Source: Nitrospirota bacterium
GTDB lineage: Bacteria; Nitrospirota; Thermodesulfovibrionia; Thermodesulfovibrionales; JdFR-88
Reading direction: 5' to 3'
Assembly: GCA_021789215.1 (NCBI GenBank)
Contig: JAJYJS010000010.1
Location: 1-64,000, forward strand
Length of the DNA stretch: 64,000 bases
The position numbers and the translations under genes were made by a program. Below the pieces are notes generated by a model that saw only the letters and a list, made by a program, of their open reading frames with translations, did not search any database and had not been told where the DNA came from. Each line of letters begins with the position of its first letter. Positions within the stretch are counted from its first letter, which is position 1. Shown here piece by piece: positions 55,750-56,367 of the stretch.

Positions 55750-55817
55750 TGGCAAAAATCTTTTCCTGCTCAATGCGGCTTCTTCTTCGGGGAGCACGTC
55801 CCTTTAGCGGCCGCCCC

Positions 55818-55907
55818 TCAGGTGGGCACCCCCATCCTGGGGAAGATCACAAGTTGCAGCACCAGCCACGCCGCCAGCACACCCAAGCCAATCAACCAGT
55901 CCGGCAT
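55818..55907 (-). CDS. Small membrane protein behind rplQ; possible selenoprotein if UGA is read
   Basis: The ATG at 55905-55907 follows the rplQ stop by 10 bases, with an AGAGGAAAG ribosome site. The 29 residues are one membrane helix (WLIGLGVLAAWLVLQLVIF) and end PRMGVPT before UGA (55820-55818). If UGA were read as selenocysteine, 15 more residues follow, GAAAKGTCSPKKKPH, to a second UGA at 55772-55770. Directly after the first UGA the RNA can fold: GGGG pairs with CCCC 25 bases later, with an apical CUAAAGGGA loop, placed as a bacterial SECIS should be. Reading through is a hypothesis; the 29-residue form is the default. Confidence 0.45.
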   Translation of the reverse strand: MPDWLIGLGVLAAWLVLQLVIFPRMGVPT

Positions 55908-55917
55908 GGTCTTTCCT

Positions 55918-56367
55918 CTACCCCTCTTTTTCCTTCCCCTTTTCCTTCTTCCCTGCCTCTTTCTCCTGTTTGCCGACGGCCTCTTCGGGCTTCTTCCCGG
56001 CCTTCACTTCCTCGTAGTCCACAAACTCTATGACGGCCATCGGGGCCCTGTCGTTCTGCCTCTGCCGCGTCTGCACTATCCTGAGATAGCCCCCGTTGCG
56101 GCCCTGAAGCCTCGGGGCTATGCTCCCGAAGAGCTTCGAAACGACCTCTTTGTTCCCGACTCCCGACAGCGCGACCCTCCTTGAATTGAGGTCTCCCCTG
56201 ATGCCCAGGGTGACAAGCCTTTCGGCTATGGCCCGCGCCTCTTTGGCCCTCGCCAGAGTGGTCTCTATCCTCTCGTGCAGTATAAGGGAGCTGACGATGC
56301 CCCTCAGCAGGGCCTTTCTCTGGTTCGCCGTCCTCCCGAAATGTCTTCCAGCCTTCTTATGCCGCAT
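55918..56367 (-). CDS. rplQ: 50S ribosomal protein L17
   Basis: MRHKKAGRHFGRTANQRKALLRG is the L17 start, and TLARAKEARAIAERLVTLG completes the conserved core. The C-terminus has a lysine/glutamate-rich extension of about 25 residues, making it 149 residues long. Overlaps rpoA by 11 bases. Confidence 0.96.
   Translation of the reverse strand: MRHKKAGRHFGRTANQRKALLRGIVSSLILHERIETTLARAKEARAIAERLVTLGIRGDLNSRRVALSGVGNKEVVSKLFGSIAPRLQGRNGGYLRIVQTRQRQNDRAPMAVIEFVDYEEVKAGKKPEEAVGKQEKEAGKKEKGKEKEG

Follow-up and report, generated by a model that had tools for sequence, protein, structure and literature searches.

The window, by which we mean the whole 64,000-nucleotide stretch analyzed here, carries on its minus strand the gene for ribosomal protein L17 (rplQ, 55918..56367), followed on the same strand by a short gene at 55770..55907 that encodes MPDWLIGLGVLAAWLVLQLVIFPRMGVPT-U-GAAAKGTCSPKKKPH; the latter assignment comes from reading the ORF together with its homologues. 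The rplQ stop ends at 55918 and the ATG of the short gene lies at 55907, which leaves a gap of 10 nt (55908..55917, minus strand). The ribosome-binding stretch, AGAGGAAAG, is rich in purines and extends from the stop codon of rplQ into this gap; both were read directly from the sequence. The product contains one hydrophobic stretch, approximately WLIGLGVLAAWLVLQLVIFP (55839..55898, minus strand), which is predicted to form a single transmembrane helix and is conserved in all homologues. It is followed by PRMGVPT and then by an in-frame UGA at codon 30 (55818..55820, minus strand). The 15 codons past this UGA encode the Lys-rich tail GAAAKGTCSPKKKPH (55773..55817, minus strand), which has a Cys at residue 38, and the 45-codon gene is terminated by a second UGA at 55772-55770. 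When the sequence was re-read, the coordinates, the 10-nt gap, the one hydrophobic helix, the position of the first UGA with its 15 following codons, and the Cys eight residues past it all agreed with the original prediction, in which the first UGA was proposed to encode selenocysteine (Sec).

Matches were obtained in 85 of the 101 genomes of the window's order in a search of 100 relatives, and the true homologues were then read as sequence. The proteins are approximately 43-61 residues long, and in most cases rplQ lies upstream on the same strand. TGA directly follows a G-[VIL]-x-[TS] motif, or a variant of it, in 79 of 79 homologues, and no TAA or TAG stands at this position. At the ends of these genes the stops are mixed (30 TGA, 24 TAG, and 24 TAA), so the uniform TGA is not due to a general preference for this codon. 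Past the TGA, the tail follows the consensus K-[GE]-[ST]-[CG]-[ST]-[PS]-K and often ends in KKKC. Third positions of the tail codons vary about twice as often as the other two (differences of 0.65 and 0.55 versus 0.21-0.37 at positions 1 and 2), and all 143 scored tails are open for at least 13 codons. The tail codons evolve like coding sequence, and the expectation that relatives would be conserved past the UGA, instead of ending there with TAA or TAG, was thus borne out. Two small groups depart from the usual pattern. In L091 and L093, TSFYR replaces GVPT before the UGA and the tail is typical (K[GR]SCTPKK), and L270 and L274 are divergent second copies with KPPTSF[SG]CPT-UGA-ATK[KR]PHSAGR, in which the UGA lies several residues further downstream and a Cys is found three residues before it.

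The original prediction had also paired the Sec with the Cys eight residues later as a possible redox couple. This part did not hold: within the order, either Cys or Gly occupies position +8, and the pairing is not conserved. We rejected a fixed Sec-Cys pair at +8 as a general feature, since the sequence CG[GU]G required of the RNA loop dictates letters of the codons there and makes the Cys/Gly alternation in part an RNA constraint. A Cys is present somewhere in 146 of 159 tails.

The window's genome (2.2 Mb, 89% complete) contains a tRNA-Sec with anticodon TCA and a full-length selB (378 bits), so the check for Sec machinery that had been proposed gave a positive answer for these two components. 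SelB scores above the cutoff in 93 of the 101 genomes of the order and in 31 of 38 owners of the family tested in other phyla. A few genomes are SelB-negative at the threshold despite having a TGA gene (for example, G010, G041, G087, G088, and G100), and several of these are incomplete. The converse is also found, as some genomes have selB and no family gene, for example in family f9. Genus g14 of that family has selB and no confident copy of the gene, though most others of the order carry it. At L325:4081-5448 in the window's own genome (G000:C36), approximately 40 nt separate the tRNA-Sec from the end of an integrase-like gene, and a resolvase-like gene lies further up, an arrangement suggestive of an integration site at the tRNA-Sec.

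A search for homologues with Cys at the UGA position, which the original prediction had suggested, yielded three acidobacterial proteins, G878 (TGT), G1094 (TGC), and G1074 (TGT). Among the 25 acidobacterial genomes compared, these three and no others are devoid of selB, and 22 of 22 TGA genomes have it (Fisher p = 1/2300, 0.0004); SelB was also found in 11 of 11 further TGA owners. The Cys replacements look independent because the closest match of each Cys protein is a Sec protein rather than another Cys protein. The hairpin has been lost in two of the three, and the third keeps a GC-rich stem and has the tail closest to a Sec relative. This exchange between Sec and Cys, which tracks selB, is the classical signature of selenocysteine and provides a clean natural experiment. 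Only these three clear Cys forms were found among a few hundred members. Of the weak stop-free matches, G625 and G497 proved on reading to be TGA forms, G373 and G761 do not resemble homologues, and two more, G811 and the Cys-containing fragment G221, are too weak to assign.

A bacterial SECIS (bSECIS) is expected to place its loop 16-37 nt after the UGA with a G among the first two loop bases. The original prediction had drawn a hairpin after the UGA with four GC pairs at its base and a G-rich apical loop. The minimum free energy fold of the isolated window segment (GGGG/CCCC base, AAAG loop) is no better than that of shuffled sequences (z -0.6 to +0.4), and the single-sequence fold was set aside in favor of comparative evidence. 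The tails were aligned by protein alignment, independent of structure, before covariation was scored. The conserved covarying element is a short inner hairpin, GGGA-CGUGC-UCCC (55789..55802, minus strand), whose loop begins C-G-U-G and starts 19 nt past the UGA, and which we take to be the putative SelB-binding element. Its stem is paired in 80% of cells versus 61% (maximum 65%) with shuffled partners, and its covariation score is 0.53 versus 0.19 (maximum 0.25) for shuffles and at most 0.29 for slid controls. The innermost pair is seen as UA, AU, CG, GC, UG, and GU. The loop CG[GU]G is kept across relatives and matches the published bSECIS pattern (PMC13188914). Of 146 unique members, 77% have a hairpin with bSECIS geometry and a ΔG of -4 or lower; the rate is 22% for shuffles and 18.5% for random TGAs. 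Loop spacings cluster at 16-23 nt. The bSECIS rule describes the family as a whole, and the window fits its geometry (19 nt, loop CGUGC); its own minimal stem of 4 bp (-3.5 kcal/mol) falls short of the published bSECIS energy limit of -7.5. The case for the window's hairpin rests on relatives, as its own stem is short and not exceptional alone. A search of the window's genome with the Rfam SECIS_1 model gave no match anywhere, with controls likewise unmatched, and an Rfam scan of the locus gave none. The predicted hairpin is real, of SECIS type, and covarying, but it lies in the inner element rather than in the fold first drawn.

Taken together, the tRNA-Sec and selB, the invariant TGA, the conserved tail, the covarying hairpin, and the Cys homologues without selB support the Sec reading of the UGA, and we conclude from this comparison of sequences that the 45-residue, one-helix protein behind rplQ is almost certainly a selenoprotein. 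Some UGA readthrough is to be expected, and a truncated product could arise when selenium is short, yet insertion of another residue such as Trp, or regulated readthrough with two products, is hard to credit: selB and a SelB-type hairpin go with the UGA, Cys codons are its only replacements, and UGA recurs as the window gene's own terminal codon. Plain termination, in which a 29-residue membrane peptide ends at the UGA and the downstream conservation reflects a structured RNA element or a terminator, appears very improbable: UGA ordinarily acts as a stop, the hairpin of the window itself is weak, and microproteins near ribosomal genes exist, but the absence of TAA and TAG, the codon-like divergence of uniformly open tails, and above all the in-frame Cys codon found only in selB-free relatives already contradict it.

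The family extends well beyond the order. GTDB genomes were scanned with a pattern open to TGA, TGC, or TGT; this gave at least 80 loci, and all 80 of those listed have TGA. The matches listed come from Nitrospirota (contigs of Thermodesulfovibrionales and other Nitrospirae MAGs among them), Acidobacteriota, Geobacter, Desulfobacterales, Anaeromyxobacter, KSB1, Planctomycetota, Neomarinimicrobiota, and others. Profile searches placed the family in the Geobacter phylum (145 of 345 genomes) and the Acidobacteriota phylum (80 of 347). It extends to Myxococcota and others as well. The tails differ by phylum, with UMSNSC in Geobacter and UAVPNPAGGR in many Acidobacteriota, and most of them across phyla specify a hairpin whose loop contains a G. 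Plasmids and phages were both searched, and no homologues were found in them. One genome, Geobacter sp. L1geo, has two selenoprotein paralogues (L166 and L211).

Outside Nitrospirota, the gene has recurrent partners. The operon order in Acidobacteriota is P-II-like, ArsR, selenoprotein, FmdB-type zinc ribbon, and DUF302, with every gene on one strand. Across 26 Acidobacteriota loci, the P-II-like gene is present at 17, the zinc ribbon at 14, DUF302 at 12, and ArsR at 15, where it lies directly upstream of the selenoprotein gene, mostly within a few nucleotides. In other phyla, the zinc ribbon and DUF302 are again present, each at 6 of 28 loci. The FmdB-family and DUF302 proteins share operons with the selenoprotein gene in several phyla as neighbors and are not homologous to its product. 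We found no description of this operon, which occurs in Acidobacteriota and in parts in other phyla (L135, L137, L150, L153, L154, L156, L161, L206, L209, L212, and others). None of the four partners was found at 26 Nitrospirota loci, where the gene would have been separated from them and mostly rides behind rplQ.

These findings suggest a working mechanism. In the first step, which the comparison strongly supports, codon 30 would be read as Sec through the hairpin approximately 19 nt downstream with its CG[GU]G loop, SelB, and tRNA-Sec. The hydrophobic stretch and the positive-inside rule further predict that the short acidic N-terminus lies outside, that one helix crosses the inner membrane, and that the Sec and the basic, probably disordered tail sit at the cytoplasmic face. 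We regard it as highly probable, on sequence grounds, that this decoding and this topology hold jointly. The selenol may then carry out thiol/selenol chemistry at the membrane surface, where a Cys of the same tail could act as a resolving partner or second ligand in most members. The recurrent operon partners suggest a role in stress from thiol-reactive metals, metalloids, or reactive sulfur, in which the protein might act together with the DUF302 and FmdB-type zinc-ribbon proteins, with an ArsR-type regulator in control. Selenol chemistry at the membrane together with this stress role is a tentative proposal; the lack of operon context at the Nitrospirota loci and the 13 of 159 tails without Cys both count against a stress function. 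The same protein could instead provide a housekeeping membrane selenol for peroxide repair or a disulfide relay. Nitrospirota mostly keep the gene in the ribosomal operon behind rplQ, which suggests constitutive expression, and most characterized selenoproteins are redox enzymes; against such a role stand the recurrent ArsR, FmdB, and DUF302 partners in Acidobacteriota and others and the absence of a thioredoxin-type fold or fixed redox motif, and we consider it possible rather than probable. The conserved operon makes the function testable.

Neither the window protein nor 10 diverse members matched any Pfam or NCBIfam model (June 2026) above the cutoff. A 2026 catalogue of 119 prokaryotic selenoprotein families lists no one-helix architecture with G[VI]PTU, and the families it credits to Haft and Tolstoy 2025 carry NCBIfam or Pfam models, which were among those scanned here (PMC13188914). 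On these two grounds we take the family to be unreported, with some residual chance of a prior description. Three features probably explain why it has been missed: annotated genes end at the UGA, the product has only approximately 45 residues, and discovery tools depend on Cys homologues. According to the authors of deep-Sep, a Cys homologue seems to exist for every known selenoprotein, and a family lacking one may be lost to filtering (PMC12013277). The family described here is large, apparently undescribed, and present in many bacterial phyla, nearly always with Sec and rarely with Cys. It adds one of the smallest selenoprotein families and, given its presence in 145 of the 345 Geobacter-phylum genomes sampled, may rank among the more widespread selenoproteins in its phyla. 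To the best of our knowledge, it is the first bacterial selenoprotein family in which a single helix serves as the membrane anchor of a Sec tail. We consider it likely that these membrane microproteins form a large unreported family, found in a sizable share of Desulfobacterota-type, Acidobacteriota, and Nitrospirota genomes and almost exclusively in the Sec form, and that they supply the membrane component of a stress operon (ArsR/P-II/FmdB/DUF302) that is itself undescribed.

The eukaryotic proteins SELENOK and SELENOS have a single membrane helix with a short N-terminus outside and a disordered cytosolic tail in which Sec lies near the end. The family shares this one-helix architecture and Sec tail and, in the case of SelS, also a partner Cys; the comparison is an analogy and concerns architecture. 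For SelS, a selenosulfide between Sec188 and Cys174 is proposed (PMC3628699). With the known bacterial selenoprotein families (PMC13188914), the family shares the UGA, the bSECIS-type hairpin, and Cys homologues in relatives that lack Sec, but it has no conserved UxxC or CxxU motif and no thioredoxin fold. Compared with SELENOK and SELENOS, its members are much shorter, the Sec follows directly after the helix, and a bacterial-type SECIS lies inside the reading frame.
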